From assembly GCA_010672825.2 (NCBI GenBank), contig JAAHFU020000003.1, positions 62,001 through 126,000 of the forward strand: a stretch of DNA of 64,000 nucleotides, given 5' to 3'. The notes beneath the pieces are model-generated. The model ran no database searches. It was not told the origin of the DNA and worked only from the letters and a program-made list of their open reading frames with translations. Position 1 is the stretch's first letter; each line of letters begins with the position of its first letter. This document shows positions 2,764 to 62,855 of this stretch, piece after piece. This DNA is from Leptolyngbya sp. SIO1E4 (GTDB taxonomy: Bacteria > Cyanobacteriota > Cyanobacteriia > Phormidesmidales > Phormidesmidaceae). The translations under genes and the position numbers were made by a program.

Positions 2764-2887
2764 AGAGGTGAAACGCTCACCCTGTTACTGCGGATGCCTG
2801 AAATAGTCGGGAGTGTTGTCGAATAAGATAGGTAGGTTCAAGAAAGATGCCTCTGCACCTCTTGCCATCACTACCGAGATAACCGTC

Positions 2888-5800
2888 ATGGATGGTCCTC
2901 GCCAACAGGCTTACCTTAATTTGATTCAACAACTGCTGACCTGTACCAGTTGGGAAGACGTAGACACGATTTTGCAGGCCAATGCGGAACTAGTTGATGC
3001 CGATTTTGTGCAGATGATGTTGACGTTGGGTGCCCAAGCCCAGGCCACTGGTGAGATAGGAACTGCTCAGTTTTTAGACCAACTGGCAATACAGATCGCG
3101 GAACCGTTGGGGCTGGATCTGTCGAAAGATGTGCAGCAGACTCAACCAATCGGGGTTAGCGTTGAGGACTTAACACAGTTTTGGTTAGCGTTACTGCAGG
3201 CTGAGATGGAAAGCGGTGGCAATGAAGCAGCAGTGCATTGGGTGATGCAGCAAAATCTGGGCTTGATTACGCCAGCGCTCGGACAAGTCATTGCCCTGTG
3301 GACAGAGCAAGCTGTTGCGCAACAACCAGGGCAGGCGGCAGAGATCGCCGGACTGGTACAAGATACTTGTATTAGTATTCAAGAATTCCCTAATGGGAAA
3401 TATGCGGAAGTCTCAGCCATTGCGATTCAGGGCTATGAAGTGGTGGTGGCTTTGCACGCCGACAACCCGGAGGAACGAGCAAGTACGCTTAATGGCCTTG
3501 GCGTTGCGGTGTGGACCCAAGCGGAACTCGGCCTGGATCCGGCGGCCAGCCTGGAGCGCGCGATTGCCGCCTTCACCGAGGCCGCCGACATCAGTCGGCG
3601 CTTAGGGCTTGAGCGCGACCTCTTCCAAACACTCAACAATTTGGGGAATGCGGTGACTACCCAAGCGAAACTCAGCCTGGACCCAGCGTCCAACCTGGCG
3701 CGGGCGATTGACGTATACACCGAGGCCGCTGACATCAGTCGGCGCTTAGGGCTTGAGCGCGACCTCTCCCAAACACTCAACAATTTGGGGAATGCGGTGA
3801 CTACCCAAGCGAAACTCAGCCTGGACCCAGCGTCCAACCTGGCGCGGGCGATTGACGTATACACCGAGGCCGCTGACATCAGTCGACGCATAGGGTTTGA
3901 ACGCGACCTCTCCGCTACCCTCAGCAATTTGGGGATTGCGGTGCAGAGCCAAGCGGAACTCGGCCTGGCCCCGGCGTCCAACCTGGCGCGGGCGATTGCC
4001 GCTTACACCGAGGCCGCTGACATCCGGCGGTGCTTAGGGCTTGAGCGCGACCTCTCCGCTACCCTCAACAATTTGGGGAGTGCGGTGAAGACCCAAGCGG
4101 AACTCGGCCTGAACCCAGTTGCCAACCTGGAGCGGGCAATTGCCACCTTCACCGAGGCCGCTGACATCCTGCGGCGCTTAGGGCTTGAGCGCGACCTCTC
4201 TATAACCCTCAACAATTTGGGGAGTGCGGTGACTATCCAAGCGGAACTCGGCCTGTGCCCGGCGGCCAACCTAGAACGGGCGATTGCCGCCTTCACCGAG
4301 GCCGCCGACATCAGCCGGCGCTTCGGGCTTGAAAGCGACCTCTCCGCAACCCTCAACAATTTGGGGAATGCGGTGCAGACCCAAGCGAAACTCGGCCTGG
4401 ACCCGTCAGCCAACCTGGAGTGGGCGATTGCCACCTACACCGAGTACGCCGACATCAGTCGGCGCTTAGGGCTTGAGCGCGACCTCTCCGGAACCCTCCA
4501 CAATTTGGGGAGTGCGGTGAAGACCCAAGCGGAACTCGGCCTGGACTCGGCGGCCAACCTGGAGCGGGCAATTGCCACCTTCACCGAGGCCGCTGACATC
4601 AGTCGGCGCTTAGGGCTCGAACGCGACCTCTCCCAAATCCTCACCAGTTTGGGGAGGGCGGTGCAAATCCAAGCGGAATTCAGCCTGGACCCAGCAGCCA
4701 ACCTGGAGCGCGCGATTGCCGCCTTCACCGAGGCCGCCGACATTAGTCGGCGCTTCGGGCTTGAACGCGACCTCTCCCAAACCCTCACCAGTTTGGGGAG
4801 CGCGGTGAGTAGCCAAGCGGAACTCGGCCTGGACCCGGCGGCCAACCTGGAGCGGGCAATTGCCACCTTCACCGAGTCAGCCGACATCAGTCGGCGCTTC
4901 GGGCTTGAACGCGACCTCTCCGCTATCCTCACCAATTTTGGGAATGCGGTGAGTATCCAAGCGCAACTGGGCATCGACCCGGCGCGCAACCTGGAGCAGG
5001 CGATTGCCGCCCTCACCGAGGCCGCTGACATCAGTCGGCAGTTGGGCTTAAGCCGTGACTTAGCCACCACGTTGAGTAATGCTGGTCTTTTCTACCAAGC
5101 CCAAGCTCACCTGACGGACAATACCCCTGCCCAAACCCAAACGGCTCTAGCCAATGCCTATGACCAATTCCACGCCGCCCTGACACAGGTGGAGTCCTTA
5201 CGAGGAGAGATTGGCACAGATAGTGAGGGCTATAAACGCAATTTCAATGAAGAGTGGAAGCGGGTTTATCGGGGCATCGTGGGGGTGTGCCTGGAATTGG
5301 GGCGATCTACCGAAGCGATGGCTTATGCTGATCGCAGCAAAGCCCGCAACCTCACTGAACTGATCGCCACCCGCGAAATCTATCCCGGCGGTGTCGTTCC
5401 TGAAGATGATCGCCAAGCGCTGCACCGCCTCAAACAGCAGATTGCCCAGGAGGAACGCCGCCTGCAAGACGATCCCAATCCCGACCCCACCCAGCTCAAC
5501 CAATTGCGGCAACAAAAGCAAGCTCTCGAACCCTATCAACCGCTAAGTTTCAAGCAGATGCAAGCCTTGCTGGATGAGGACACCGCCATCCTGGAATGGT
5601 ATCTCCTGCCGAATCAATTCCTCACCTTCACCCTCACCGCCCAATCCCTCGAGCTCCGGCCTTCTACGGAGCAAGACCGCCAGAAGCTCATCGACTGGGC
5701 AAACGCCTACCTACGTGACTATCTCACTGATAGAGACCAATGGCGCGATCAGACCCAGCTGACCCAACGCCTGGCCGAACTGTCCCAAATTCTCCATCTC

Positions 5801-6814
5801 GATGAAATCCTGGCCAAACTCCAGGAAACCCACCCCACCTGCCAAAAACTCATCCTCATCCCCCACCTGTTTCTGCACCTCTTCCCCCTCCATGCATTAC
5901 CCACTGCGAACGAGTCTGGGGATGGGGGGCAATTCCTCCAGGATCGCTTCTCCCAAGGCGTGGTCTATGCTCCCAACTGCCAAGTGCTGCAACAAGCCCA
6001 AATCCGCCGTCAGCAACGCAAGGACTTTGACCGCCTCTTCGCCATCCAAAACCCCACCCAAGATCTGCAGTTCACCGACCTGGAAGTCGAAACGCTCCAA
6101 ACCCGGTTTGATCCTGCCCATGTCCACGTTTACAAACACGGCCAGGCCGACAAAGCCACCATCGTCCAGCCCAACCCAGCGAACCCCACCTACCTCGACA
6201 CCCAAGCGAAACTACAAGCCGCCCATTGCGCCCATTTCTCCTGCCACGGCTACTTTAATTTTGAGGATGCCTTGAAATCGGCACTGATTCTGGCCAACAG
6301 CGAATTCATCCCGCCGCCGCCCAGCGATGACCCCAGCCGCTATTTGCGGCTGGCAAACAACAAGCTGCTGGATTTACAGCAATGCCTCACCCTGGAAGAC
6401 ATCCTGCGCCTGGAGCTGAGCCACTGCCGCCTGGTTACCCTCTCCGCCTGCGAAACTGGCCTCACCGACTTTACCTCCACCAGTGATGAATATATCGGCC
6501 TGCCCAGCGGCTTCATTCTAGCCGGTGCCTCCAACGTGGTCAGCACCCTCTGGGCCGTCAACGACCTCTCCACCGCCCTCTTCATGATTCACTTTTATCA
6601 ACTTGTTCAACAGGGCCAAGCCGTTACCCTGGCGCTGAAACAGACCCAGCGCTGGCTACGGGAGAGCACCGTGGAAATGTTCAAAGGCTGGTCAACCAAC
6701 ATTTCGGAACCGCTCAAACAAGCAGTCCATATCCACTTAGAAATCTACGGTGATGAAGAAAGTCCCTTTGTCTCGCCCTATTACTGGGCAGCCTTTGCCG
6801 CGATTGGGGCTTAG
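2888..6814 (+). CDS. CHAT-domain caspase-like protease with TPR repeats, copy 1
   Basis: Protein of about 1308 residues. I start at ATG 2888 (MDGPRQQ), not the upstream in-frame start, because this matches the paralogue at 9005 and lies in the shared leader. Order: N-terminal helical domain of about 200 residues; eleven to twelve 48-residue TPR-like repeats (unit ERAIAAFTEAADISRRLGLE plus LSATLNNLGNAVQTQAELGL) over about residues 200-725; a linker helix region; a C-terminal CHAT domain with His1120 in HFSCHGYF and Cys1188 in LSACETG, the expected caspase-like dyad. No signal peptide, so cytoplasmic. By family, TPRs sense a partner and CHAT cleaves proteins in conflict or cell-death responses; target unknown. 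Followed by the coupled genes at 6994 and 7344. Confidence 0.9.
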   Translation: MDGPRQQAYLNLIQQLLTCTSWEDVDTILQANAELVDADFVQMMLTLGAQAQATGEIGTAQFLDQLAIQIAEPLGLDLSKDVQQTQPIGVSVEDLTQFWLALLQAEMESGGNEAAVHWVMQQNLGLITPALGQVIALWTEQAVAQQPGQAAEIAGLVQDTCISIQEFPNGKYAEVSAIAIQGYEVVVALHADNPEERASTLNGLGVAVWTQAELGLDPAASLERAIAAFTEAADISRRLGLERDLFQTLNNLGNAVTTQAKLSLDPASNLARAIDVYTEAADISRRLGLERDLSQTLNNLGNAVTTQAKLSLDPASNLARAIDVYTEAADISRRIGFERDLSATLSNLGIAVQSQAELGLAPASNLARAIAAYTEAADIRRCLGLERDLSATLNNLGSAVKTQAELGLNPVANLERAIATFTEAADILRRLGLERDLSITLNNLGSAVTIQAELGLCPAANLERAIAAFTEAADISRRFGLESDLSATLNNLGNAVQTQAKLGLDPSANLEWAIATYTEYADISRRLGLERDLSGTLHNLGSAVKTQAELGLDSAANLERAIATFTEAADISRRLGLERDLSQILTSLGRAVQIQAEFSLDPAANLERAIAAFTEAADISRRFGLERDLSQTLTSLGSAVSSQAELGLDPAANLERAIATFTESADISRRFGLERDLSAILTNFGNAVSIQAQLGIDPARNLEQAIAALTEAADISRQLGLSRDLATTLSNAGLFYQAQAHLTDNTPAQTQTALANAYDQFHAALTQVESLRGEIGTDSEGYKRNFNEEWKRVYRGIVGVCLELGRSTEAMAYADRSKARNLTELIATREIYPGGVVPEDDRQALHRLKQQIAQEERRLQDDPNPDPTQLNQLRQQKQALEPYQPLSFKQMQALLDEDTAILEWYLLPNQFLTFTLTAQSLELRPSTEQDRQKLIDWANAYLRDYLTDRDQWRDQTQLTQRLAELSQILHLDEILAKLQETHPTCQKLILIPHLFLHLFPLHALPTANESGDGGQFLQDRFSQGVVYAPNCQVLQQAQIRRQQRKDFDRLFAIQNPTQDLQFTDLEVETLQTRFDPAHVHVYKHGQADKATIVQPNPANPTYLDTQAKLQAAHCAHFSCHGYFNFEDALKSALILANSEFIPPPPSDDPSRYLRLANNKLLDLQQCLTLEDILRLELSHCRLVTLSACETGLTDFTSTSDEYIGLPSGFILAGASNVVSTLWAVNDLSTALFMIHFYQLVQQGQAVTLALKQTQRWLRESTVEMFKGWSTNISEPLKQAVHIHLEIYGDEESPFVSPYYWAAFAAIGA
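3480..5060 (+). repeat. Tandem 144-bp coding repeats (48-aa TPR-like units)
   Basis: Units of exactly 144 bp recur; for example GAGCGCGACC lies at 3611 and again at 3755. The second and third units (about 3611-3890) are almost identical at DNA level, including synonymous positions, which points to recent unit duplication or gene conversion. Each unit encodes two TPR-type helices with conserved ANLERAI and LERDLS.TL motifs. Confidence 0.9.
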
Positions 6815-6993
6815 CCACGGTGTGCTGCCACAGCCAGGCTGGTTTTGCCGCTGGGTAAACTCACCAATTAAGATGACAACCACAGCTAGGGAGGCGATCG
6901 CCGCCGCGTGCATCATGACCTCAATCGTCAACGCGACTCTTTTATTTGCATCACCATCCACCTAAACTGCTCAACCCTAAACCCCAAAAAACT

Positions 6994-7347
6994 ATGAAAG
7001 TTGAGGAACTCATCGCCATTGTGCCGGACTATCTCCAGGCCAACCCCACAGCCCTCTCGGCTGAGGCGCTCAATGCCCTTGATCAGATTCTGGAGGCGCT
7101 GGACACCGTTGAGGTCGAGCGAACTCGTGCCGATTTCGTGAATTGGCTGAGAACTTACAGAGACGAGCGAGATCGGCTCAAATTCTACGCTGAAGCTAAT
7201 CGAGAAGTTGGTCAGCAAAGCCCCGCCCCTGAAAGTGCCGAAGCCAAGACCTTACAAAATTATTTCCAAACCGCTCGCCAAGTTCGCTGCAACCAATCTC
7301 CCAACCCTGACAGGCAAGATCCCCAAGACATGCCCCCCCAAACATGA
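6994..7347 (+). CDS. Small acidic helical protein coupled to membrane partner
   Basis: About 117 residues from ATG 6994 (MKVEELIAIVPDYLQANPTA). An earlier in-frame ATG at 6946 (MHHHPP...) adds a low-complexity tail, so I prefer 6994. I do not recognise the family. The first 85 residues look helical and acidic (ALSAEALNALDQILEALDTV, then RADFVNWLRTYRDERDRLKF); the C-terminus is proline- and glutamine-rich. The stop overlaps the next gene's start by four bases (ATGA at 7344), which implies translational coupling. It lies 180 bp after a CHAT protease gene and may be an adaptor or accessory part of that system. This is inferred from position only. Confidence 0.65.
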   Translation: MKVEELIAIVPDYLQANPTALSAEALNALDQILEALDTVEVERTRADFVNWLRTYRDERDRLKFYAEANREVGQQSPAPESAEAKTLQNYFQTARQVRCNQSPNPDRQDPQDMPPQT

Positions 7348-8792
7348 TCAAAGTCTATGCCCCCAACCTGCATCTTTTCGCGTTCCACCTGATCCAGGGA
7401 GATAAACCCACGCGCCTGTGGGACTACTACACCGATTGCCTTCAGCCCCACTTTGCACTTCCCAACCTGGGCAAGCTGAGATCGCTTCCAAGTGGCATCC
7501 GTGCCTATCTCCACCCCAATGGCCAAACCGAAGTTTTCATTCCCCTCACTGGGCAACTGCCTGCAAGTAAAACCTCAGAAACCGCCGTAGGAATCCCCAT
7601 CACCGGGTTAGTCTCACCAGTGCAGCTTTACGATAGCTACGGCTTGGCTCTTAACTTGCGGATTCCCGAAGGAGAAGATGCCACGAGGCAGCCTACCGCC
7701 GCCGTTGATCTGAGTATCTTTCAACAATTCAACACAGAACAGATCTTTCGCCCCAAATACATCCACAGCAACTTGGGGCAAACCCTGCTCTTGACCGCTT
7801 GGCTAGAGCCCCCAGAACGAGAGCAGCGGGAAAATTGGCAGGACATCGCCCAGCAAATTCTCGCCAACTTTCTACACGGTGAATCACTGCCTCCGCTCTA
7901 TCAAGCAGGCCATCTATTTGGTAGCCCCATTTATGAATACGGCTCTCCAACCGTCCCCAATGCTCAAGGACAGATTGAGCATTATCTGATCTGGCTGTTT
8001 ATCAACAGTAACGGCGATGAAAATTTGAACCATTGCTATCAAGAACTGTTCGATCTCTGGTTTTATCGCCATAAAATCACCACTGCCTGCCACTACAGCC
8101 GTGAGGACCTTGAGGCAATTAAATCCCAGTATGGCGAGATCAAATGCATTTTTTCTGACATTCCCAACACAATTGATCCGGCGGCCGAGTTGCTCTCCCC
8201 CGAAACTCTTACCACCTTAAAAACGCAACTTAAAGCCTTACCCAAACGCGATTTGGAATATACCGAAGCCCTCAGCGCCTTTGAAAATCGACAGTTAGCG
8301 CTGCGGATTAACAATGCTAACTATGGTGAAAAAATTGCCGCCATTCAAGCCAGAACCATCTCCGAAGATATCTCGTTCCTGGCTTCATTTGGCACTAACA
8401 ATGCTGCCACGTTAATTAAGCAGATGCAATACGAGGTGGGCTATTTTGGCCAGGGCTCGCGCTGGATCGATAAATCGATCTCCACGATTCGAGGTTTAGT
8501 CGAAATTGACCAGGCGGAACGCGATCTCCAGCGCCGAAAACAAGAACAAGCCTTGCAAGATAACATTTCAGCCATTGGTGTAGGCGTGGCCGCCGGGGCG
8601 ATCGTGGCCTCCAGTTCCGGACTCATCATGGAACCCTGGTATTGGGGACGGCAGGAAATTGACTCGCCTTGGCAACTGCCTCATCCTTTCTTCATCGGCG
8701 TCGTTGGCAGTGGGATATTGGCCGTGATTGCCTGGGGGTTAACAAAAGCCTGGCTCCAATTCCGGCGACAGCAGCATGATTCTGACCCCTAA
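7344..8792 (+). CDS. Unknown protein with C-terminal membrane segments, CHAT-linked
   Basis: A 482-residue protein whose ATG overlaps the previous stop. The family is not recognised. The first 400 residues are soluble, with no visible catalytic motif (FAFHLIQGDKPTRLWDYYTD near the start, GHLFGSPIYEYG near residue 190). The C-terminus has two hydrophobic stretches (SAIGVGVAAGAIVASSSGLI and FFIGVVGSGILAVIAWGLT, about residues 410-470) followed by a basic tail KAWLQFRRQQ. That suggests a membrane-anchored protein with a large cytoplasmic part. Next to a CHAT protease it could be a sensor, anchor or substrate; this is inference. A CHAT protease that releases or activates a membrane protein would be a testable model. 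Confidence 0.75.
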   Translation: MIKVYAPNLHLFAFHLIQGDKPTRLWDYYTDCLQPHFALPNLGKLRSLPSGIRAYLHPNGQTEVFIPLTGQLPASKTSETAVGIPITGLVSPVQLYDSYGLALNLRIPEGEDATRQPTAAVDLSIFQQFNTEQIFRPKYIHSNLGQTLLLTAWLEPPEREQRENWQDIAQQILANFLHGESLPPLYQAGHLFGSPIYEYGSPTVPNAQGQIEHYLIWLFINSNGDENLNHCYQELFDLWFYRHKITTACHYSREDLEAIKSQYGEIKCIFSDIPNTIDPAAELLSPETLTTLKTQLKALPKRDLEYTEALSAFENRQLALRINNANYGEKIAAIQARTISEDISFLASFGTNNAATLIKQMQYEVGYFGQGSRWIDKSISTIRGLVEIDQAERDLQRRKQEQALQDNISAIGVGVAAGAIVASSSGLIMEPWYWGRQEIDSPWQLPHPFFIGVVGSGILAVIAWGLTKAWLQFRRQQHDSDP

Positions 8793-9004
8793 GTTAGGTC
8801 TCCCCGTTAAACAATGTAGACTCTTCAGCCCTATGGGCTGAACTGTAGTGGTTATGATGGACAACCTCAGGCCTGATGCTCATAGGAGGCCCAACGCTTA
8901 CCCTTGTACTGTGGGGGCCTGAAATATCCGGGATGTTGCCGAAGAAGTCGGTAGGTTAAGAAGGATGCCTCTGCACCTCTTGCTATTACTACCCGAGAAC
9001 CGTC

Positions 9005-12000
9005 ATGGATTCTCCTCGCCAACAGCTTTGCATTAACTTGATTCAACAACTGCTGACCTGTACCAGTTGGAACGAAGTAGACACAATTTTGCAGGCCAAT
9101 GCGGAACTAGTTGATGCCGATTTTGTGCACATGATGCTGACGTTGAGTGCCCAAGCCCAGACCGCTGGTGATATAGGGCCTGCTCAGTTTTTAGGCCAAC
9201 TGGCAATACAGATCGCGGAACCGTTGGGACTGGATCTGTGGGAAGAGGTGCTGCAGGCTGAACCAACTGAGGACAGTGCGCAGGACTTAACCCAGTTTTG
9301 GTTAGCGTTACTGCGAGCTGAGGTGGAAAGCGACGGCAATAAAGCAGCGGTGCATCAGGTGATGCAGCAAAATCTGGGCTTGATTACGCCAGCGCTCGGA
9401 CAAATCATTGCCCTGTGGACAGAGCAAGCCATTGCCCTGTGGACAGAGCAAGCTATTGAGCAACAACCAAAGCAGGCCGCAGAGATCGCCAGACTGGTAC
9501 AACATACCTGCATTAGTATTCAAGAATTCCCCGATGGGAAATATGCCGAGGTGTTAGCCATTGCGATTCAGGGCTATGAAGTGGTGGTGGCTTTGCAGGC
9601 CAACACCCCGGAGGAACGAGCAAGTACGCTTAATAGCCTTGGGGGTGCGGTGTGGACCCAAGCAGAATTAGGCATCGACCCGGTGGCTAACCTGGAGCGG
9701 GCGATTGTCGCCTATGAGGAATCGGCGCAGCTCAGTCGGCAGTTGGGGCTGGACCGCAACCTCTCTTCTACCCTGAATAACCAAGCCACTGCGCGGAAGA
9801 CCCAAGCGGAATTGGGCATCGACCCGGCGCACAACCTGGAGCGGGCGATCACCGCCTATGAGGAATCGGCGCAGCTCAGTCGGCAGTTGGGGCTGGACCG
9901 CGACCTCTCTTCTACCCTGATGAACCAAGCCACTGCGCGGAGTACCCAAGCGGAATTGGGCATCGACCCGGCGGCTAACCTGGAGCGGGCGATCACCGCC
10001 TATGAGGAATCGGCGCAGCTCATGCGGCAGTTGGGGCTGGACCGCAACCTCTCTTCTACCCTGATGAACCAAGCCAATGCGCGGAGTACCCAAGCCCAAT
10101 TGGGCATCGACCCGGCGCTCAACCTGGAGCGGGCGATTACCGCCTATGAGGAATCGGCGCAGCTCAGTCGGCAGTTGGGGCTGGACCGCGACCTCTCTTC
10201 TACCCTGATGAACCAAGCCACTGCGCGGAGTACCCAAGCGGAATTGGGCATCGACCCGGCGCTCAACCTGGAGCGGGCGATCACCGCCTATGAGGAATCG
10301 GCACAGCTCAGTCGGCAGTTGGGGCTTGACCGCGACCTCTCCAAAACCCTGATGGGCCAAGCTACTGCGCGGAGTGCCCAAGCGGAATTGGGCATCGACC
10401 CGGCGCGCAACCTGGAGCGGGCGATCATCGCCTATGAGGAATCGGCGCAGCTCATGCGGCAGTTGGGGCTTGACCGCAACCTCTCTTCTACCCTGATGGG
10501 CCAAGCCAATGCGCGGAGGATCCAAGCCCAATTGGGCATCGACCCGGCGCGCAACCTGGAGCGGGCGATCACCGACTATGAGGAATCGGCGCAGCTCAGT
10601 CGGCAGTTGGGGCTTGACCGCGACCTCTCCAAAACCCTGATGAGCCAAGCCACTGCGCGGCTGATCCAAGCGGAATTGGGCATCGACCCGGCGCTCAACC
10701 TGGAGCGGGCGATCACCGCCTATGAGGAATCGGCGCAGCTCAGTCGGCAGTTGGGCCTTGATCGCGACCTCTCCCGAACCCTGATTAACCAAGCCACTGC
10801 GCGGCAGACCCAAGCGGAATTGGGCATCGACCCGGCGCTCAACCTGGAGCGGGCGATTGTCGCCTATGAGGAATCGGCGCAGCTCAGTCGGCAGTTGGGG
10901 CTGGACCGCGACCTCTCTTCTACCCTGATGAACCAAGCCACTGCGCGGGGAACCCAAGCGGAATTGGGCATCGACCCAGCGGCTAACCTGGAGCGGGCGA
11001 TCACCGACTATGAGGAATCGGCGCAGCTCAGTCGGCAGTTGGGGCTGGACCGCAACCTCTCTTCTACCCTGATTAATCAAGCCAATGCGCGGAGGATCCA
11101 AGCCCAATTGGGCATTGACCCAGCGGCTAACCTGGAGCGGGCGATCACCGACTATGAGGAATCGGCGCAGCTCAGTCGGCAGTTGGGGCTGGACCGCGAC
11201 CTCTCCAAAACCCTGATGAACCAAGCCAATGCGCGGAGGATCCAAGCCCAATTGGGCATCGACCCCGCAGCTAACCTGGAGCGGGCGATTACCGACTATG
11301 AGGAATCGGCGCAGCTCAGTCGGCAGTTGGGGTTAACTCGTCACTTAGCCAAAACGTTGAGTAATTTTGGCTTTATCTATCAAGCCCAAGCCCACCTGAC
11401 GGGCAATCCCCCTACCCAAACCCAAACGGAAACGGTTCTGGCCAATGCCTATGACCAATTCCAAGCTGCCCTGGCACAGGTGGAGTCCTTACGAGGAGAG
11501 ATTGGAGCAGATAGCGAAGGCTATAAACGTAATTTCAACGAAGAGTGGAACCGAGTTTATCAGGGCATGGTGGGGGTGTGCCTGGAATTGGGCCTCGAGA
11601 CCGAAGCGATGGCCTATGCTGATCGCAGCAAAGCCCGCAACCTTACCGAACTCATCGCCACTCGCGAAATCTATCCCGGCGGTGTCGTTCCTGAAGATGA
11701 GCGCCAAGCACTACACCAGCTCAAACAGCAGATTGCCCAGGAGGAGCGCCGCCTGCAAGACGATCCTAATCCCGACCCCACTCAGCTCAACCAATGGCGA
11801 CAACAAAAACAAGCCCTTGAACCCTACCAACCGCTGAGCTTCGACAACATGCAAGCTCTGCTGGATGAAGACACTGCCATCCTGGAATGGTATCTCCTGC
11901 CGAATCAATTCCTCACCTTCACCCTCACGGCCCAATCCCTCGAGCTCCGGCCTTCTTCGGAGCAAGACCGCCAGAAGCTCATCGACTGGGCAAACGCCTA

Positions 12001-13105
12001 CCTGGATGACTATGACACTGACAAAGACCACTGGCGTGATCAGCCCCAACTGACCCAACGCCTTGCGGAGCTCTCCCAAATCCTTCATCTCGATGGAATT
12101 CTGGCCAAACTCCAGGAAATCCACCCCACCTGCCAAAAACTCATCCTCATCCCCCACCTGTTTCTGCACCTCTTCCCCCTCCATGCATTACCCACTGCGA
12201 ACGAGTCTGAAGATGGGGGGCAATTCCTCCAGGATCGCTTCTCTCAAGGCGTTGTCTATGCCCCCAACTGCCAAGTGCTGCAACAAGCCCAAATCCGCCG
12301 TCAGCAACACCAGGACTTTGACCGCCTCTTCGCCATCCAAAACCCCACCCAAGATCTGCAGTTCACCGACCTGGAAGTCGAAACGATCCAAACCCGGTTT
12401 GATCTTGAACATGTCCACGTTTACAAACACGGCCAGGCCGACAAAGCCACCATCGTCCGGCCCAACCTAGCGAACCCCACCTACCTCAACACCCAAGCGG
12501 AACTACAAGCCGCCCATTGCGCCCATTTCTCCTGCCACGGCTACTTTAATTTTGAGAATGCCTTGAAATCGGCACTGATTCTGGCCAACAGCGAATTCAT
12601 CCCGCCGCCGCCCAGTGATGACCGCCGCCGATATTTGTCGCTGAAAAACAACAAACTACTGGATTTACAGCAATGCCTCACCCTGGAAGACATCCTGCGC
12701 CTGGATTTGCACCACTGTCGCCTGGTTACCCTCTCCGCCTGCGAAACTGGCCTCACCGACTTTACCTCCACCAGTGATGAATATATCGGCCTGCCCAGCG
12801 GCTTCATTCTAGCCGGTGCCTCCAACGTGGTCAGCACGCTCTGGACCGTCAACGACCTCTCCACCGCCCTCTTCATGATTCACTTTTATCAACTTGTTCA
12901 ACCGGGCCAAGCCATTCCCCTGGCGCTGAGACGGACCCAGCGCTGGCTACGGGAGAGCACCGTGGAAACGTTCAAAATCTGGTCAGCCAACATTTCGGAA
13001 CCGCTCAAACAAGCAGTCGATCAACACTTCGAGTGCTATGACCCGGGAGAAACTCCCTTTGTTTCGCCCTATTACTGGGCAGCCTTTTGTGTGATCGGGG
13101 CTTAA
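9005..13105 (+). CDS. CHAT-domain caspase-like protease with TPR repeats, copy 2
   Basis: Protein of 1366 residues starting at ATG 9005 (MDSPRQQLCINLIQQLLTC). N-terminal domain about 210 residues, nearly the same as copy 1 but with a small internal duplication (IALWTEQAIALWTEQAI, 9405-9450). Then twelve 48-residue repeats (ERAITAYEESAQLSRQLGLD, LSSTLMNQATARSTQAELGI), about residues 205-780. The C-terminal CHAT domain keeps His1178 (HFSCHGYF) and Cys1246 (LSACETG), so both copies should be active proteases. The CHAT part is much closer between copies than the repeats, which use a different consensus (AYEESAQLSRQ against FTEAADISRR). That suggests shared output with separate sensed partners. 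No signal peptide. Confidence 0.9.
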   Translation: MDSPRQQLCINLIQQLLTCTSWNEVDTILQANAELVDADFVHMMLTLSAQAQTAGDIGPAQFLGQLAIQIAEPLGLDLWEEVLQAEPTEDSAQDLTQFWLALLRAEVESDGNKAAVHQVMQQNLGLITPALGQIIALWTEQAIALWTEQAIEQQPKQAAEIARLVQHTCISIQEFPDGKYAEVLAIAIQGYEVVVALQANTPEERASTLNSLGGAVWTQAELGIDPVANLERAIVAYEESAQLSRQLGLDRNLSSTLNNQATARKTQAELGIDPAHNLERAITAYEESAQLSRQLGLDRDLSSTLMNQATARSTQAELGIDPAANLERAITAYEESAQLMRQLGLDRNLSSTLMNQANARSTQAQLGIDPALNLERAITAYEESAQLSRQLGLDRDLSSTLMNQATARSTQAELGIDPALNLERAITAYEESAQLSRQLGLDRDLSKTLMGQATARSAQAELGIDPARNLERAIIAYEESAQLMRQLGLDRNLSSTLMGQANARRIQAQLGIDPARNLERAITDYEESAQLSRQLGLDRDLSKTLMSQATARLIQAELGIDPALNLERAITAYEESAQLSRQLGLDRDLSRTLINQATARQTQAELGIDPALNLERAIVAYEESAQLSRQLGLDRDLSSTLMNQATARGTQAELGIDPAANLERAITDYEESAQLSRQLGLDRNLSSTLINQANARRIQAQLGIDPAANLERAITDYEESAQLSRQLGLDRDLSKTLMNQANARRIQAQLGIDPAANLERAITDYEESAQLSRQLGLTRHLAKTLSNFGFIYQAQAHLTGNPPTQTQTETVLANAYDQFQAALAQVESLRGEIGADSEGYKRNFNEEWNRVYQGMVGVCLELGLETEAMAYADRSKARNLTELIATREIYPGGVVPEDERQALHQLKQQIAQEERRLQDDPNPDPTQLNQWRQQKQALEPYQPLSFDNMQALLDEDTAILEWYLLPNQFLTFTLTAQSLELRPSSEQDRQKLIDWANAYLDDYDTDKDHWRDQPQLTQRLAELSQILHLDGILAKLQEIHPTCQKLILIPHLFLHLFPLHALPTANESEDGGQFLQDRFSQGVVYAPNCQVLQQAQIRRQQHQDFDRLFAIQNPTQDLQFTDLEVETIQTRFDLEHVHVYKHGQADKATIVRPNLANPTYLNTQAELQAAHCAHFSCHGYFNFENALKSALILANSEFIPPPPSDDRRRYLSLKNNKLLDLQQCLTLEDILRLDLHHCRLVTLSACETGLTDFTSTSDEYIGLPSGFILAGASNVVSTLWTVNDLSTALFMIHFYQLVQPGQAIPLALRRTQRWLRESTVETFKIWSANISEPLKQAVDQHFECYDPGETPFVSPYYWAAFCVIGA
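9606..11340 (+). repeat. Tandem 144-bp coding repeats, copy-2 CHAT gene
   Basis: Twelve consecutive 144-bp units encode the 48-residue TPR-like repeat. DNA identity between units is very high (GGCATCGACCCGGCG, CTGGAGCGGGCGAT and GGAATCGGCGCAGCTCAGTC recur almost unchanged). Positions varying between units are few and clustered (STLMN/KTLMG/RTLIN; SQ/MR before QLGLD), as expected for a recently homogenised array that can vary in number between strains. Confidence 0.95.
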
Positions 13106-13224
13106 AACGGTGTGCCACCACAGCCAAGCCGGTTTTGCCGCTAGACAAACCCACTCACTGGGATGGCAACTACGCTCATAATGCGGATGAAATCTATTAC
13201 ATTTGACCGGTTGACTATAGAGCA

Positions 13225-13868: not shown

Positions 13869-14678
13869 TTAGCTTTTAGCATCGCGGTTCTCGGATGAGG
13901 TGTCAAGCGATGCTGAAGGGGTGGGGAGGTCGCTTGCCGTATTGGCCTTAAGCGGACTGGTGAGCTTCCGCATCGATTCCCCCTTGAGCGCCACGCGAAT
14001 GGCATCGTGGACAATGCGGTCAAGAATGGCATCGGCTAAGGTGGCATCTTGGATTTGGGGATGCCAGGATTCGATAGGGAGTTGTGTGACAAAGAGGCAG
14101 GATTTGCGACGATAACGGTCATCAATGAGGTCCAGTGCAAGGCGGGCATCCGGCACCGATAAGGGGTCGCGTAACCACTCATCCCAGATCAAGAGGTCAA
14201 AGGTCACCAGTTGTTTCCGCAGTTTCGGGAAGGAGCCATCGGCTTGGGCGCGTTTCAGAGCGGCTAATAATGCGTGGGTTTTGCCATAGCGGACGGTATG
14301 TCCCAGCCGACACAAGTGTTGAGCCAGCACCGAGGCGAGAAAGGTTTTGCCAATGCCGGTGGGGCCCACCAGCAGTAATTGGAGTGACTCTCTAAGCCAC
14401 TGACCCTGAGCGAGCTGGAGCCAGCGAGTTTTGCTCAAGCCGCGAGCGGTCGTGTAGTCGATGGACTCCAGCGAGACCTCGGTGAGCGGTAACTGAGCTT
14501 GCTTGAGGCGGCGCTGTTGGCGCAGGTGCTGACGTCGCAGGTGTTCGCGCTCGACTAATAAGGCCAAGCGTTCATCAAAGGCGAGGTCTTGATAAGTGGG
14601 AGACGCTTGCTGCTCGCGCCAAGCATCGAGCATGCCCCAAAGCTTGAGAGCTTGCAGTTGTTCAAGGGTGGCGTTCAT
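13869..14678 (-). CDS. istB: IS21 helper ATPase IstB
   Basis: About 269 residues from ATG 14678 (MNATLEQLQALKLWGMLDAW); a longer in-frame start would overlap the istA end and is less typical. AAA+ DnaA-like ATPase that assembles on target DNA and regulates the IstA transposase. Visible motifs: Walker A GPTGIGKTFLA, Walker B-like TFDLLIWDEWLRDPL and the IstB-type N-terminus with RREHLRRQHLRQQRR. The usual order istA then istB on one strand is kept, about 45 bp apart. Length matches the family. The C-terminal 30 residues (after MRKLTSPLKA) look less conserved. Confidence 0.93.
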   Translation of the reverse strand: MNATLEQLQALKLWGMLDAWREQQASPTYQDLAFDERLALLVEREHLRRQHLRQQRRLKQAQLPLTEVSLESIDYTTARGLSKTRWLQLAQGQWLRESLQLLLVGPTGIGKTFLASVLAQHLCRLGHTVRYGKTHALLAALKRAQADGSFPKLRKQLVTFDLLIWDEWLRDPLSVPDARLALDLIDDRYRRKSCLFVTQLPIESWHPQIQDATLADAILDRIVHDAIRVALKGESMRKLTSPLKANTASDLPTPSASLDTSSENRDAKS

Positions 14679-14723
14679 GATGACAAATGGATAACGGTGC
14701 AATGAGTGCTGTGGGCTGGGCAA

Positions 14724-16319
14724 CTAGCGGTAGTAAGCTGGGCCTCGAACATTCTCGTGGAGCGGAATCGGAGCGACTGCCATCGGGCTTTGAGCGGTGG
14801 CCTGTTCCAGGCGATTTTCTAACACAGAGCGCACTCGTTTGAGTCCGACGAGGGCGAACTGATTGGCATAGGCACAGGCCGCTTCTAACCGCCAATGGCC
14901 ATAGGATTGGGCTAACCGTTGCAGTCCTTTGAGGGTGCGAAAGGCTTGCTCCTCATGCTCCTTAAGGGCAAAAATGGCTTCCACTTGAGCCACCGTCTGT
15001 GGGCCAATGTGGGCGGCCCAGGTGAGGAAGGTTTGCTTTGACTGTCGTTTGTAGGCCCAATGTTCCGGCGGCATGTGTTCTGCTTGCGTGGTATGGCGAT
15101 AGGGCGCTTTCGAGCGTTGATGACAAGCGACCCGCTGCCCTTCATAGAAAATTTCGACCTGGTGCTCGGAGAATTTGACTTGGACTGGCCGTTGCACGAG
15201 CCAGTAGGGCAGGGAATAGTAATGTTTCTCCACCTCAATGTGATAGTCCAGGTTGACTTTGGCGGTTTTCCATTGGGCAAAGACAAAGCTCGTCGGCGGT
15301 AAAGGCCTCAGGGCCGCCTGTTCAATCCGCTCAAACAATGTCTGGCGGGACATCCCATAGCCTTTCATTGTCCTCTGGTTGAGGCGCTCTAAGCGTGCTC
15401 GAATCGCCTCATTGAGGGCCGTAAAACTCCGGAAGACTTGATGCCGCAGCGGGGCCAGCACCTGTCGTTCGACTTCCTGCACCGCCTTTTCCACTTTCGC
15501 CTTGTCTTGCGGATGCTTCGGTCGTGCCGGAATAATGGCGAGACCATAGTGCTGCGCAAACTCTTGATAGCTCCGATTAATGCCAGGTTCATAACGACAG
15601 GGAGCCGTGACACCAGACTTGAGGTTGTCGGGCACAATCACCTGCGGCACACCGCCGAAAAAACGGAGCGCTCGGCAATGCGACCCAATCCAGTGGGGTA
15701 AAGCTTGCGAGGGTGTCGCTTCGGCAAAGGTGTAATTACTCGCCCCTAAGCAGGCGACAAAGATTTGAGCCGTCACCGTTTGGTCCAATATCGGATCATA
15801 GATCGGCAGCGTCAGACCGCAATAATCGACAAACAGCTTCTCCCCGGCTTTATGCTCCTGGCGCATCGATAAGTTCTGACGACCTTTCCAACGCCGATAA
15901 CGCCGACAGAAGCCGCCATAGCTGCAATTCCACTGCCCGGTGTCCAAGCCTTCTTGCCACAGCAAAGCCAGGGTGACACCTTTGCGTTTGAGTTCTCGCT
16001 GAATATATTCAAAATCAATGGCTTCCTGCACCGGACGAGGCTGACGGTGTCCCTTGCCCAACAGGGCGCGGGCTTCGCCATCCGTTAATGGACTCAAATC
16101 GTCGTAGCTGAGTCCTTTCGCGCTCGCCCGGCGCACATAGTCCTGCACCGTTGAGCGAGCGACAGCGCAACTGCGGGCAATTTGACACTGGCTATAGCCC
16201 AAACCATGCAACCGCAGAATCTCGCGGAATTTTTCCATCGCTAATAGACCTCCTTGACGGGATTGACTCATCACTCTCCACCGCTGAGAAATCTCACGCA
16301 GTGTAGAGGCGATCTTCAT
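14724..16319 (-). CDS. istA: IS21 transposase IstA
   Basis: 531 residues, the usual size or slightly long; an internal start near MEKFREILRLHGLGYSQCQI (residue 28) would also fit. N-terminal helix-turn-helix (SQCQIARSCAVARSTVQDYV), then a DDE integrase core with D in KLFVDYCGLTLPI, D in VIVPDNLKSGV and E in KAKVEKAVQEVERQVL. A C-terminal beta-rich DNA-binding region follows (HYIEVEKHYYSLP-type, here DYHIEVEKHYYSLPYWL). It catalyses strand transfer at the terminal repeats found on both element ends. No frameshift or stop seen. Confidence 0.93.
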   Translation of the reverse strand: MKIASTLREISQRWRVMSQSRQGGLLAMEKFREILRLHGLGYSQCQIARSCAVARSTVQDYVRRASAKGLSYDDLSPLTDGEARALLGKGHRQPRPVQEAIDFEYIQRELKRKGVTLALLWQEGLDTGQWNCSYGGFCRRYRRWKGRQNLSMRQEHKAGEKLFVDYCGLTLPIYDPILDQTVTAQIFVACLGASNYTFAEATPSQALPHWIGSHCRALRFFGGVPQVIVPDNLKSGVTAPCRYEPGINRSYQEFAQHYGLAIIPARPKHPQDKAKVEKAVQEVERQVLAPLRHQVFRSFTALNEAIRARLERLNQRTMKGYGMSRQTLFERIEQAALRPLPPTSFVFAQWKTAKVNLDYHIEVEKHYYSLPYWLVQRPVQVKFSEHQVEIFYEGQRVACHQRSKAPYRHTTQAEHMPPEHWAYKRQSKQTFLTWAAHIGPQTVAQVEAIFALKEHEEQAFRTLKGLQRLAQSYGHWRLEAACAYANQFALVGLKRVRSVLENRLEQATAQSPMAVAPIPLHENVRGPAYYR

Positions 16320-28376: not shown

Positions 28377-28521
28377 TCTCTATCAAAAAAAGTTATTGCG
28401 GAATACTAGAATCTTACTGAATCTGTATCAGTATTTGAAACTAGTAATAGATAATAAATCAACTGCTCTAAAGTCGAATAGTGGTTGTCTGGATATTCAG
28501 GATCAGAGGAGTGCTAAGAGT

Positions 28522-30111
28522 ATGAATAGAACTTTCGTTCGAAAACTGGTAGGTACAGTAGCTTTAGTAGGTCTTGTCGGCATACTGTCTGAGACATCAA
28601 TGTCACCATTCGACAGCAAATTCTTGGGCAAACTGACAAGCGGCACTGCACTTGCCCAAGATACGCCAAGCGGTCGGGACATTTATCAAAAGGTCATTCC
28701 TTCAGTAGTGGAAATCAGAACACTCAACTCGACAGGGAGTGGTTTTGTAGTTAGCTCTGATGGGCTCATCATCACAAATGCCCATGTTGTTGATGACGGC
28801 CCCTCAGTTGTGACTGTTGTTTTCCAAGATGGGAGTCAACTCACAGCTGATGTCTTGGGGTTTGATGCTTTAGGACAAGATCTCGCGGCTCTTCAGGTAT
28901 ATCCTGAGAGTGAACTGCAAGCTATACCAACAGCGCCGATAGGTTCTCTTCAACCAGGTGACCAAGTTTATGCGGTCGGCTCACCTTTCGGAATTGGAAT
29001 TTCTTTTACGGCTGGGGTTGTCAGCGACATTGACTCATTAGATGGCATGATCCAGCATGATGCTCCTATCAATCCAGGTAATTCTGGTGGTCCTTTAGTC
29101 GATAACAACGGAGATATTGTTGGAGTTAATACCGCACTCTATAATCCCACAGGGAATGGAACTAATTTAGGAATTAGCTTTGCAATTTCTAATGAAAGAT
29201 TACAGGCTTTTATTGGAAGTGCTGAGGCAGGACAATTGGCTCAATCCAGGCCAACTCCAAGCGCTCAACGTCCTCAAGAGCTTTTATTCGATGGGCAAGT
29301 TGTTGATGCTGCCTTGACCCAAGAGAGCAATCAGTTTCCATCTGGAAGCTATTACGACACTTATGTTTTCTCTGGCGAATCAGGGCAAGAAGTCAGCATT
29401 CAAATGAGTAGCTCTGACATAGATTCTTATTTAATTCTACTCAGACCATCTGGTCGTGATGAGAACGGACAAATTCTCTTCGAAAAGATTGCCGATCAAG
29501 ATGATATTTCATCCGAGAATGCGAATGCTCAGTTAAGTCTTACATTACCAGAAACAAGCTCATACCTACTTTTAGCTACCTCTTTTGCAAAAGAAACTGG
29601 CGTGTACTCCTTAAAAGCTGAAAATGGCTTCACTGCTGCAGCTAGCTCTTCTAACCAAACCGCTAGTTTCTTCTGTGGCCAGAGTCTCGATCCTGCGTCC
29701 GGAGAAAATCTTCCAACAACTCTCTCTTGGATTCCCGAACTTCAAGGAAAAAGATCTATTATTGTTTGGAAGTCGCAATTCTTTGAGCAATTTGGGCTGA
29801 CAAATCAACAAAGATGTGTCCAAGCTTCTTCAAGATTACAGACGGCAATTGAGGAAGAACGTTTTTATCTAACCGCTGGAAATGTTGATAATCAGACTGT
29901 TGTATGTGCTGTTGGCCAGGAAGGAGAGACTTGCGGCCAGAACTACATTTTTGCACTTAAGCCGACTGATAATCCAGATATTGTACTACAGCAACTTATC
30001 GTCTCTCTCAGAGATGCTAGTGGGCCACTGTATCAGAGTCGTCCAGGAGAAACATATCTCGATATCCGAGATCTTTTAACCACAATCCCTGATATGGGAA
30101 ATGAAAACTAG
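28522..30111 (+). CDS. Exported HtrA-like protease with PPC and COP23 domains
   Basis: 529 residues from ATG 28522 (MNRTFVRKLVGTVALVGLVG). The preceding in-frame stretch from 28396 is AT-rich non-coding-like, and a GAGGAGTG motif lies upstream. Signal peptide about 1-45 (SGTALAQ). Trypsin-like domain with His in ITNAHVVDD, Asp in ALGQDLAAL and Ser in NPGNSGGPL, no PDZ domain. Then a PPC-type beta domain (SYYDTYVFSGESGQEVSIQM to LPETSSYLLLATSF). Then a COP23-like domain (FFCGQSLDP, IIVWKSQFF, QQRCVQASSRLQ, FALKPTDNPD) with four or more cysteines. Likely periplasmic. Codon use and GC are clearly below the flanking transfer genes. Confidence 0.85.
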   Translation: MNRTFVRKLVGTVALVGLVGILSETSMSPFDSKFLGKLTSGTALAQDTPSGRDIYQKVIPSVVEIRTLNSTGSGFVVSSDGLIITNAHVVDDGPSVVTVVFQDGSQLTADVLGFDALGQDLAALQVYPESELQAIPTAPIGSLQPGDQVYAVGSPFGIGISFTAGVVSDIDSLDGMIQHDAPINPGNSGGPLVDNNGDIVGVNTALYNPTGNGTNLGISFAISNERLQAFIGSAEAGQLAQSRPTPSAQRPQELLFDGQVVDAALTQESNQFPSGSYYDTYVFSGESGQEVSIQMSSSDIDSYLILLRPSGRDENGQILFEKIADQDDISSENANAQLSLTLPETSSYLLLATSFAKETGVYSLKAENGFTAAASSSNQTASFFCGQSLDPASGENLPTTLSWIPELQGKRSIIVWKSQFFEQFGLTNQQRCVQASSRLQTAIEEERFYLTAGNVDNQTVVCAVGQEGETCGQNYIFALKPTDNPDIVLQQLIVSLRDASGPLYQSRPGETYLDIRDLLTTIPDMGNEN

Positions 30112-39205: not shown

Positions 39206-39374
39206 TGCAACTTTTCTCAAAATTCGGTCAATATCAGTAACTTGGTATGCCAATATCAATCGAGATATTTAACTAAGATGTCTTAACACTTAGTTTTGAA
39301 TCACACTCTCCGGCGGCGTATAAGTCTCGGTTTGGCTCCTATAAAAATTGTGAACTGACTTGTGGAGCAGTGAT

Positions 39375-40556
39375 ATGAGTTCAGGTTTTTCGGCAGGGCC
39401 TCAAGCACTCGGTTATCTTTACCAAATTCGCTATGCATTATACCTTACTTTGGAAAATCGGGAAGAACTTCAACTATCAATTGAAAGCCTCGATGATGTT
39501 ACTTTTGATGATCAAGGTACACCTACGGAACTTCTACAACTGAAACATCATGTAAACCAAGCATCTCTTACGAATAGAAGTAGAGATCTCTGGAAAACGA
39601 TTCGTGTATGGAGTAGCTTAACCAAAGATGAACTGGTATCATCCAATACATTGCTTACTTTGGTTACTACGGGATTAGCTCCTGAAAATTCAATCTCATC
39701 CCTTCTAAGACATGGAACTGATAGGAACCCACAACTGGCGACACAGCAACTACGTAGCATTGCTCAGTCAGACACTCAGAGTCTAGCCAAAGAATTTGAA
39801 GCTTTTAATGCGTTGACAGATTCTGAGCAAGAACAGCTAGTTGACTCTATACAAATCATTGATGCTTCACCCCAAATTAATGATGTTGTCCCAAGAATAA
39901 AGCAAAGAATCAAGTTTTCTGTAAGGAGAGAGCACTTACATAACCTCTATGAAAGATTGGAAGGATGGTGGTTTTCAAAGGTAGTTAACCATCTTAATGA
40001 GGAATCTGCTGTACCAATTTCAGGATTTGAGGTTCACGATAAAATTTGTGACATCGCAGAACAGTTTAAACCTGATGCTTTACCTATAGATTATTTCGAA
40101 CTTCAACCATCTGAACCACCTGATATTGACGCAGATGATCGTCGATTTGTGATGCAGCTTAAAGCCATTGCAATTAATAATAAGCGCATTGAAAAGGCCA
40201 TTTTGGATTACTACAGGGCGTTTGAGCAACGATCTAGATGGGCTCGCGAAGATTTATTATTCAGTGATGAAATAGAGCAGTATGAAAAGAAGCTAATTGA
40301 TGAGTGGGATCGCTATCGATTGATGCTTCAGGATGAATTGATTCTTGAAGATGAAGATGAAACAGTGCATCAGCAATTTGGGCGCAGATTATATAACTGG
40401 GTAGATCAAACAGCAGATATTCGAATACGGCCTCAGGTTGCTGAAGAATATGTAATGCGTGGAAGTTACCACATATTAGCTGACAAAATTTCACCTATTG
40501 TATGTTGGCATCCCAAATTCGTTGAAAGACTCGCTCAATTATTACCAACTTCATAG
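39375..40556 (+). CDS. ABC-3C defence effector, nuclease-like N-terminus
   Basis: 393 residues from ATG 39375 (MSSGFSAGPQALGYLYQIRY). The opening A-G-x-Q-A-L-G-Y-L-Y-Q-I-R-Y, then LSIESLDDVTFDD and ELLQLKHHVN, matches the DUF4297/Cap4-like nuclease pattern, with E/D residues and a QLK as possible active site. The C-terminal 200 residues (IEKAILDYYRAFEQRSRWAR, QQFGRRLYNWVDQ, RGSYHILADK) fit the ABC-3C-specific domain that docks on the middle component. Probably cuts DNA when the system is triggered. First gene of the cassette, AT-rich relative to neighbours. Catalysis is inferred from pattern only. Confidence 0.8.
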   Translation: MSSGFSAGPQALGYLYQIRYALYLTLENREELQLSIESLDDVTFDDQGTPTELLQLKHHVNQASLTNRSRDLWKTIRVWSSLTKDELVSSNTLLTLVTTGLAPENSISSLLRHGTDRNPQLATQQLRSIAQSDTQSLAKEFEAFNALTDSEQEQLVDSIQIIDASPQINDVVPRIKQRIKFSVRREHLHNLYERLEGWWFSKVVNHLNEESAVPISGFEVHDKICDIAEQFKPDALPIDYFELQPSEPPDIDADDRRFVMQLKAIAINNKRIEKAILDYYRAFEQRSRWAREDLLFSDEIEQYEKKLIDEWDRYRLMLQDELILEDEDETVHQQFGRRLYNWVDQTADIRIRPQVAEEYVMRGSYHILADKISPIVCWHPKFVERLAQLLPTS

Positions 40557-40566
40557 GAGTTATTCC

Positions 40567-41052: not shown

Positions 41053-41053
41053 C

Positions 41054-62724: not shown

Positions 62725-62855
62725 CTGAGTAAGATACGGCCACAACAGAATCTGCAAAAGGCACCCGTAAAATCAGCAGTGTATGACTGCCCTTTGCATA
62801 AGTTATTCCCTGAATACCTTCAACTGTTGCAGGTACTTGAAAGCGGTCATTAAAA

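Follow-up and report, generated by a model that had tools for sequence, protein, structure and literature searches.

A gene cassette composed of a CHAT protease gene, a gene for a small protein (SM) and a gene for a membrane protein (BIG) was analysed in a 64,000-nucleotide stretch of Leptolyngbya sp. SIO1E4 (contig JAAHFU020000003.1, positions 62,001 to 126,000), hereafter referred to as the window. The cassette is real and conserved, has no family match in the libraries searched, and combines a partner of unexpected CorA-like predicted architecture with a link to Death-like domains. All three genes are located on the forward strand. The first CHAT gene extends from position 2888 to 6814 and specifies 1308 amino acids from its likely start codon ATG 2888, an alternative open frame from GTG 2813 corresponding to 1333 amino acids. 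The deduced protein comprises an N-terminal region, a TPR-like array encoded by 144-bp units and a C-terminal CHAT domain (Pfam E-value 7.8e-49). The catalytic dyad (6245..6451) consists of His1120 (codon 6245-6247, motif FSCHGYF) and Cys1188 (codon 6449-6451, motif LSACETG), the latter being numbered correctly in the initial annotation if the protein is counted from ATG 2888.

The stop codon of the first CHAT gene (6814) is followed, with a spacing of 179 bp, by SM (6994..7347), which encodes 117 amino acids. The SM stop codon (TGA, 7345-7347) overlaps the BIG start codon (ATG at 7344) in the tetranucleotide ATGA (7344..7347), and translational coupling of the two genes is likely. BIG (7344..8792) encodes a protein of 482 amino acids. 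The initial description of SM as a small acidic helical protein whose stop overlaps the 482-residue gene agrees with the coordinates, with an isoelectric point of 4.56 (20 D/E versus 13 K/R) and with a helical AlphaFold model of moderate confidence (mean pLDDT 72), in which a helical bundle (residues 3-68) is followed by a C-terminal helix. A fold comparison of SM yielded no usable match (best Z 4.8), nor did Pfam at E<=1, and a match to the PADLOC model CARF7 (E 0.0077, 13.8 bits) was set aside as helix similarity.

Directly downstream of BIG, a second CHAT gene was identified (9005..13105, 1366 amino acids; His codon 12536-12538, Cys codon 12740-12742) that had been overlooked in the initial annotation. 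Both CHAT genes exceed the Pfam CHAT cut-off and contain the dyad. The deduced proteins share 74.8% identity overall and 89.2% in their C-terminal parts, and the matches between the genes at the DNA level (2772-5004 with 8893-11145 and 4311-6852 with 10596-13142) indicate a tandem duplication. Both genes contain a clear array of 48-amino-acid (144-bp) repeats, located at 3505-5053 and 9655-11332, in which neighbouring units are 86% and 92% identical in DNA, whereas the two arrays share 57.7% amino acid identity, less than the C-terminal parts do; this pattern points to recent expansion or conversion of the arrays. The two genes matched no TPR model at E<=1, and SNAP, a TPR-like family, scored below its cut-off of 25 bits (21 and 15.9 bits); the repeats are therefore termed TPR-like. 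In the original designation CHAT-TPR, the TPR part is the weaker one, being backed by the sub-cut-off SNAP matches and the 48-residue repeat array. Matches of the CHAT genes to DUF2623, Exonuc_VII_S and an aminoglycoside acetyltransferase were dismissed as repeat artefacts, none of the respective stretches passing alone. The cassette region is flanked by transposase genes, of the Mutator type and of IS1 on the left (174-2763) and, as judged by eye, IstA/IstB-like on the right (13869-16319).

Conservation, co-divergence and distribution

Relatives of BIG were searched in two ways. A scan of the phylum detected them in 46 of 386 genomes, representing 29 of 143 genera; that of the window is among the 46, as is a doubtful one (G094) in which the match contains five stops. 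Four candidates per genome were scored, and up to four distinct places were reported for each. A second, pattern-based scan covered 84,980 species with one genome each and may omit records very close to the window's genome; it yielded 175 relatives, of which the best 80 were used. Every record among these best 80 is cyanobacterial, and the closest are from Spirulina (49% and 44% identity).

For the linkage analysis, 101 of the 111 places from the phylum scan, contained in 100 stretches, were added to the best 80 loci of the species scan. Ten places, mostly weak or short, were left out (G229:C41, G360:C218, G116:C166, G172:C88, G203:C82, G382:C1:6348100, G066:C1:2583415, G091:C3:1501278, G094:C12 and G278:C140). 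Because the two sets of loci overlap, linkage was counted on distinct BIG proteins, with the window left out (163 loci), and a flank of 2.5 kb for CHAT or 0.8 kb for SM was needed for a locus to be testable. A CHAT gene on the same strand was located within 5 kb upstream of BIG in 122 of 130 distinct loci, and within 1.5 kb in 110 of these, whereas a CHAT gene downstream of BIG, on either strand, was present in 4 of 148 (Fisher p 5e-63). These counts reject a chance neighbourhood. The recurrent linkage to CHAT genes that had been envisaged from the window alone was thus recovered in the relatives: the two genes do not occur mainly without a CHAT neighbour, which is missing in eight loci (L061, L083, L122, L124, L128, L137, L155 and L177), and no well-known unrelated family could be assigned to them. 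A separate SM gene was recognised by the SM profile upstream of BIG in 124 of 152 distinct loci, and in three more SM is fused to CHAT.

The three components also diverge together. Over 109 complete cassettes the Mantel correlation was 0.656 for CHAT-BIG, 0.846 for SM-BIG and 0.662 for CHAT-SM, values that none of 2000 permutations reached. Among 180 aligned CHAT open reading frames, 27 were set aside and 153 were scored, having a letter in both catalytic columns; the histidine and the cysteine are both kept in 152 of them, a cruder motif count before alignment having given 114 of 146. The linkage between BIG and CHAT is one-way, as CHAT genes abound without BIG in the window's genome, which contains 49 CHAT matches (48 of them over the cut-off) and one BIG gene. 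Toxin-antitoxin-like small genes, named by eye as MNT-HEPN, DUF433-PIN-like and RelE-like, lie between CHAT, SM and BIG in several loci (L056, L062, L065, L072, L070, L050, L079, L158 and L186).

The occurrence of the cassette is patchy within genera (for example g9 and g16) and within the window's family, in which 5 of 63 genomes, that of the window counted, contain BIG, the other four proteins sharing 23-27% identity with it. Five cyanobacterial plasmid records carry BIG genes annotated as hypothetical proteins; according to PLSDB typing, one of these plasmids is conjugative, three are mobilizable and one is non-mobilizable. None of 41 pattern-matching stretches from viral contigs encodes a BIG relative. 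Taken together, the cassette is a conserved, co-diverging, patchy and sometimes plasmid-borne three-gene unit.

The best 80 of the 175 relatives come mostly from filamentous genera, with unicellular exceptions among assemblies of Aphanothece and Crocosphaera. Such a distribution would suit a regulator with a developmental or housekeeping function in filamentous organisms, resembling HetF and acting outside immunity and cell death. HetF is not known to have an SM or BIG partner. In PMC8406250, HetF is described as a cyanobacterial CHAT protein and putative protease that is required for heterocyst development and acts in differentiation and division. A developmental role of the cassette is nevertheless quite unlikely in view of its patchiness inside genera and inside the window's family, its presence on plasmids and beside transposases, the toxin-antitoxin-like inserts recognised by eye, and the bDLD1 and iSTAND contexts of some BIG relatives that are described below.

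Predicted architecture of BIG and variants of the cassette

The AlphaFold2 model of BIG, built from 61 sequences, has a mean pLDDT of 89.7. It consists of an alpha/beta head (residues 1-220, approximately; 7344..8003) and a stalk of long helices (residues 232-410; 8037..8573), with helices at 232-276, 286-337 and 344-428, the last of which continues as far as the first membrane segment and forms part of it. The second membrane helix (448-479) follows after a short loop modelled with low confidence. The two C-terminal membrane segments noticed initially in the 482-residue protein are borne out by the prediction of hydrophobic residues 411-429 (TM1, 8574..8630) and 445-463 (TM2, 8676..8732). TM1 is glycine-rich, TM2 starts with a conserved P-H-P-F motif, and glycine and proline residues are conserved in the membrane part. 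The C-terminal tail beyond TM2 is basic and therefore probably cytoplasmic. Among 94 BIG relatives of 420-600 amino acids, two membrane segments are predicted in 49, one in 40, three in 3 and none in 2.

A comparison of the BIG model with PDB structures by Foldseek placed CorA, MRS2 or ZntB proteins at all ranks from 1 to 22 of 862 matches, many of these being repeat entries of one CorA; the best E-value was 1.3e-4 with a probability of 0.99, nine matches had E<=0.001, and the TM-scores were low (0.12-0.40). VIA-align superimposed BIG on the Methanocaldococcus jannaschii CorA structure 4ev6_B with Z 11.3 (211 residues, 6.0 A) and on CtMrs2 with Z 11.0 (229 residues, 7.2 A). According to the models, BIG resembles CorA in its architecture but is devoid of the GMN filter. 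The resemblance raises the alternative that BIG belongs to the CorA family of ion transporters and came incidentally under protease control. This is very improbable, given that GMN is present in none of the 94 proteins and GxN in the respective region in seven, that Pfam gave no CorA match for the window's BIG or among the families listed for 51 relatives, and that the comparison of BIG with profiles of cyanobacterial CorA proteins by hhalign returned a probability of 1.4%. The assignment of BIG as a magnesium transporter was rejected owing to the missing GMN motif. The window's genome itself has no CorA (PF01544) match; within its order, such a match is missing from 5 of 29 genomes searched, itself counted.

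The window's BIG protein yielded nothing in Pfam at E<=1, including CorA PF01544 and gasdermin. A match to the NCBIfam model of the MakE toxin (E 0.03, 13.3 bits versus a cut-off of 360) was set aside as helix similarity, and a search of PDB sequences with the BIG profile returned 23 sequences at E<=1, the best at 0.087 (spectrin) and none of them useful. When 51 BIG relatives were scanned singly, bDLD1 in one protein was the sole interpretable match among the 25 of 56 families listed, which include neither CorA PF01544 nor CATRA-N. The initial remark that neither protein has a known motif therefore stands, only weak noise having been found for them across Pfam, NCBIfam and PADLOC.

The position and the sequence of SM would be in agreement with a cognate antitoxin-like inhibitor of BIG that is destroyed by the protease, BIG being set free uncut. 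SM directly precedes BIG: the median gap is 5 bp, and in 22 of the 127 distinct loci that have SM the two genes overlap by 4 bp. SM is also a small protein, in the window an acidic one, and it evolves faster than the other components, with a median identity of 20% as compared with 33% for BIG and 42% for CHAT. Yet SM is joined to the C-terminus of CHAT in five open reading frames (L097, L103, L115, L296 and L297) and to that of BIG in one (L172), which fits a docking part rather than a disposable lock, though self-cleavage would be possible. On account of these fusions, SM is regarded as a docking part or adaptor in preference to an inhibitor acting freely, and its attachment to CHAT speaks for an adaptor no less than for a separate regulator. 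A disposable inhibitor is consequently regarded as rather unlikely.

A further group of variants connects BIG to bacterial Death-like domains. The BIG relative in L116 carries two further domains, bDLD1 (E 1.3e-5) and one that is trypsin-like (E 1.1e-13). Among the next genes are one for an iSTAND protein (3.3e-16), which scores 21 with bDLD1 and thus stays below the Pfam cut-off of 25, and one for a MoxR-like AAA ATPase. Two BIG-bDLD1 proteins are encoded in L120. The BIG-bDLD1 gene of L114 (5.8e-8) precedes SM and a bDLD1-caspase gene. No membrane segments are predicted in these four proteins, in which bDLD1 stands instead of them, and the hairpin can therefore be exchanged for a Death-like adaptor. 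In L116 and L120, the genes for BIG-bDLD1, iSTAND, the MoxR-like protein and an unknown 363-amino-acid protein form a run with gaps of 0-3 bp, and three CHAT frames are located upstream in L116. Variation was also observed on the protease side: on a Tolypothrix plasmid (L214), a divergent gene for a "caspase family protein" with nSTAND1 and WD40 takes the place of CHAT, as does a divergent nSTAND1-WD40 gene in L122 and L124, the start of which looks caspase-like by eye, the caspase part being absent among the Pfam matches listed.

The head without membrane segments in L114, L116 and L120 also indicates that the head can have a membrane-independent role. BIG might then be a membrane-anchored signalling protein from which cleavage frees the soluble head with its helices to act elsewhere, the hairpin being a mere anchor. 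A precedent is provided by Csx29, which cuts the neighbouring Csx30 and thereby relieves the inhibition of a sigma factor, as described in PMC10028731. This possibility is judged to be unlikely, because at least one membrane segment is retained in 92 of the 94 BIG proteins of 420-600 amino acids, because glycine and proline residues are conserved within these segments, and because no downstream gene is widely shared, the largest cluster among the next two genes spanning 8 of 164 loci.

Comparison with known systems and proposed mode of action

A ternary system named CATRA has reportedly been predicted by Burroughs and Aravind. It is cited in PMC8195603 and PMC12657218. Among the papers searched, none joins CATRA, CHAT and cyanobacteria, and in the literature listings CATRA is either predicted computationally or simply mentioned. 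Pfam provides the models CATRA-N (PF20269), CATRA-C (PF20270) and CATASP (PF20271). A locus on a Streptomyces plasmid (L274), named CATRA in RefSeq, encodes a divergently oriented CHAT protein of 1294 amino acids with a TPR_10 match, a CATASP protein of 119 amino acids, and a CATRA-N and CATRA-C protein of 501 amino acids with three predicted membrane segments, the gene of which overlaps the small gene. The cassette and CATRA thus share three genes encoding a repeat-bearing CHAT protease, a small protein of about 119 amino acids and a protein of about 500 amino acids, the latter consisting in CATRA of an N-terminal domain of about 200 residues, a domain of about 137 residues and membrane segments. 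The gene sizes agree, SM (117 amino acids) being CATASP-like in size and position, and the BIG head corresponding to CATRA-N in the same respects. The two differ in that the window's CHAT gene is located upstream on the same strand and BIG has two membrane segments, and in that the repeats of the window's CHAT proteins match no TPR model.

Searches with the CATRA models passed the Pfam cut-off for CATRA-N, CATRA-C or CATASP in none of the 386 cyanobacterial genomes, among the matches listed. BIG proteins make up 5 of the 14 listed sub-threshold matches of CATRA-C with a coverage of 100 or more of the 137 positions (L110, L061, L056, L296 and L297; E 0.0038-0.099), and five of the other nine are non-BIG by the BIG profile (L288/L298, L292/L299, L293, L300 and L301); with 95 positions covered, BIG accounts for 5 of 32, many others being frames of about 1170 amino acids that are SMC-like by size. 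These coverage limits were picked after the matches had been viewed, in a listing that reaches E-values of about 0.5. Two of the CATRA-C matches (G298 and G157) fall at about BIG residues 239-353, within the stalk and in the place of CATRA-C. The CATRA-C matches speak for a relationship without proving it. In actinobacterial plasmids, PF20269 gave two matches at E<=1 and none over the cut-off in three records, and one true match in eight further records.

Direct comparisons were less favourable. The window's BIG protein and Streptomyces CATRA gave an hhalign probability of 0.4% and an hmmsearch E-value of 0.25, and in a free-end profile test 58 of 147 unrelated proteins scored as high; the best local match lies near the equivalent diagonal (BIG 287-332 with CATRA 276-321) and is a hint only. 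For SM and one Streptomyces CATASP protein, the hhalign probability was 0.1% and 97 of 324 controls scored as high. As these comparisons were non-significant, the cassette was not assigned as a member of CATRA. It is termed CATRA-like, as it would work in the same manner, and is probably a distant branch. The suggestion of a new CHAT-type three-gene system accordingly retains its core, a conserved linkage to CHAT and no family in the libraries searched, but the system is not wholly new, CATRA being similar in its parts and their sizes.

In bacterial gasdermin systems, the gene of a membrane-acting protein adjoins a caspase-like or CHAT protease gene. BIG differs in that its best fold matches are CorA-like, and neither Pfam at E<=1 nor the 50 fold matches listed contained a gasdermin. 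Craspase, in which the type III-E TPR-CHAT protease Csx29 acts on the substrate Csx30, likewise pairs a CHAT protease with a neighbouring protein partner, but CHAT is accompanied here by a small protein and by a membrane protein of CorA-like architecture. Membership in Craspase was rejected, since the Csx29 model of NCBIfam scored the window's CHAT genes at 53.7 and 51.1 bits, far below the cut-off of 300. In PMC10600005, a type III-B CRISPR-associated CorA effector is postulated to open a pore upon binding of SAM-AMP; by description it resembles BIG in joining a soluble domain to a CorA-related membrane part, and it differs in its nucleotide trigger, the membrane protein considered here being encoded beside a protease. 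Death-like adaptors are a theme of the ternary conflict systems described by Kaur et al. 2020 and 2021 (PMC7159879 and PMC8195603). The iSTAND/MoxR ternary and bacterial Death-like systems treated there resemble L116, where the BIG-bDLD1-trypsin gene stands beside iSTAND and MoxR-like genes, and differ from the window, where BIG has membrane helices instead of a bDLD1 match.

The whole is best explained by a CATRA-like, protease-controlled membrane-effector cassette of cyanobacteria, a reading for which confidence and doubt are about evenly balanced. Within it, BIG is likely a protease-controlled membrane effector of programmed cell death. Starting from the gene order, the catalytic residues, the membrane segments, the fusions and the predicted fold presented above, we infer a protease-substrate step together with a trigger, cleavage, pore opening, cell death and a role in defence. 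The three proteins form a plausible protease-partner set, strengthened by the SM-CHAT fusions. CHAT would serve as both sensor and protease, the repeat array sensing and the His-Cys CHAT domain cutting. SM, in the role of adaptor or regulator, would bind to CHAT and probably to BIG as well. BIG would be the effector, composed of a cytoplasmic alpha/beta head, a stalk of long helices and a two-helix membrane hairpin as in CorA channels. A trigger, most likely a phage or another invader, would turn CHAT on; active CHAT might then, via SM, cut or unlock BIG, and BIG in this state would perturb the membrane, whereupon the cell is killed or arrested. The cassette may therefore act as a protease-triggered cell-suicide switch. 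A more specific version, in which BIG is a protease-gated channel of the CorA fold that SM-docked CHAT turns into a lethal pore and whose head is re-wired to Death-like domains in paralogues, is offered tentatively and is more doubtful.

Several results weigh against this explanation. No cleavage site can be named, PADLOC gave no match for BIG or for either CHAT gene, and Pfam TPR models found nothing at E<=1 in the window's two CHAT genes. A recognisable separate SM is missing in 28 of the 152 distinct loci, in three of them owing to the fusion with CHAT. Regarding CorA, the VIA-align scores (Z<=11.8) remain under the value of about 13 that the tool deems safe for long helices, and a designed helical bundle reaches Z 11.2 with BIG; since such a bundle scores equally, the similarity represents an architectural resemblance and not a proven descent, and the hhalign comparison with cyanobacterial CorA profiles was rejected as evidence of homology. 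Regarding CATRA, the CATRA-N and CATASP models miss the window's BIG and SM at E<=1, and the matches listed for these two models in the 386 genomes contained no recognisable BIG or SM locus. In a global profile test of BIG against one Streptomyces CATRA protein, 239 of 300 unrelated proteins scored as high; of the shuffled controls, 200 of each kind, only 2 full shuffles and 14 window shuffles did so.

If the proposed mode of action is true, a protease-gated pore of the CorA fold would constitute a further membrane-lytic route to cell death beside gasdermins and nucleotide-gated effectors, and the BIG head in the bDLD1 paralogues would connect the cassette with the death-domain network of bacteria. 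The data describe a large CATRA-like family of cyanobacteria that has no match in Pfam, NCBIfam or PADLOC and a confident membrane-protein model. Moreover, the two kinds of fusion suggest which parts of the cassette touch each other, and the effect of CHAT on its membrane partner thereby becomes directly testable.

Further candidate genes in the window

Outside the cassette region, the window contains another candidate conflict system at 39360-43009, where an ABC-three-component gene (CTD7, E 1.9e-47) is followed by a DUF3732 gene. An NLR-like candidate is encoded on the reverse strand at 58036-62757; it is an NB-ARC protein of 1573 amino acids with a long array of repeats that appear similar by eye. 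The gene at 28396-30111 joins a COP23 (circadian oscillating protein) domain to a trypsin-like protease, and the gene following it (30217-34398) encodes a large protein in which protease-like and TPR-like regions were recognised by eye.

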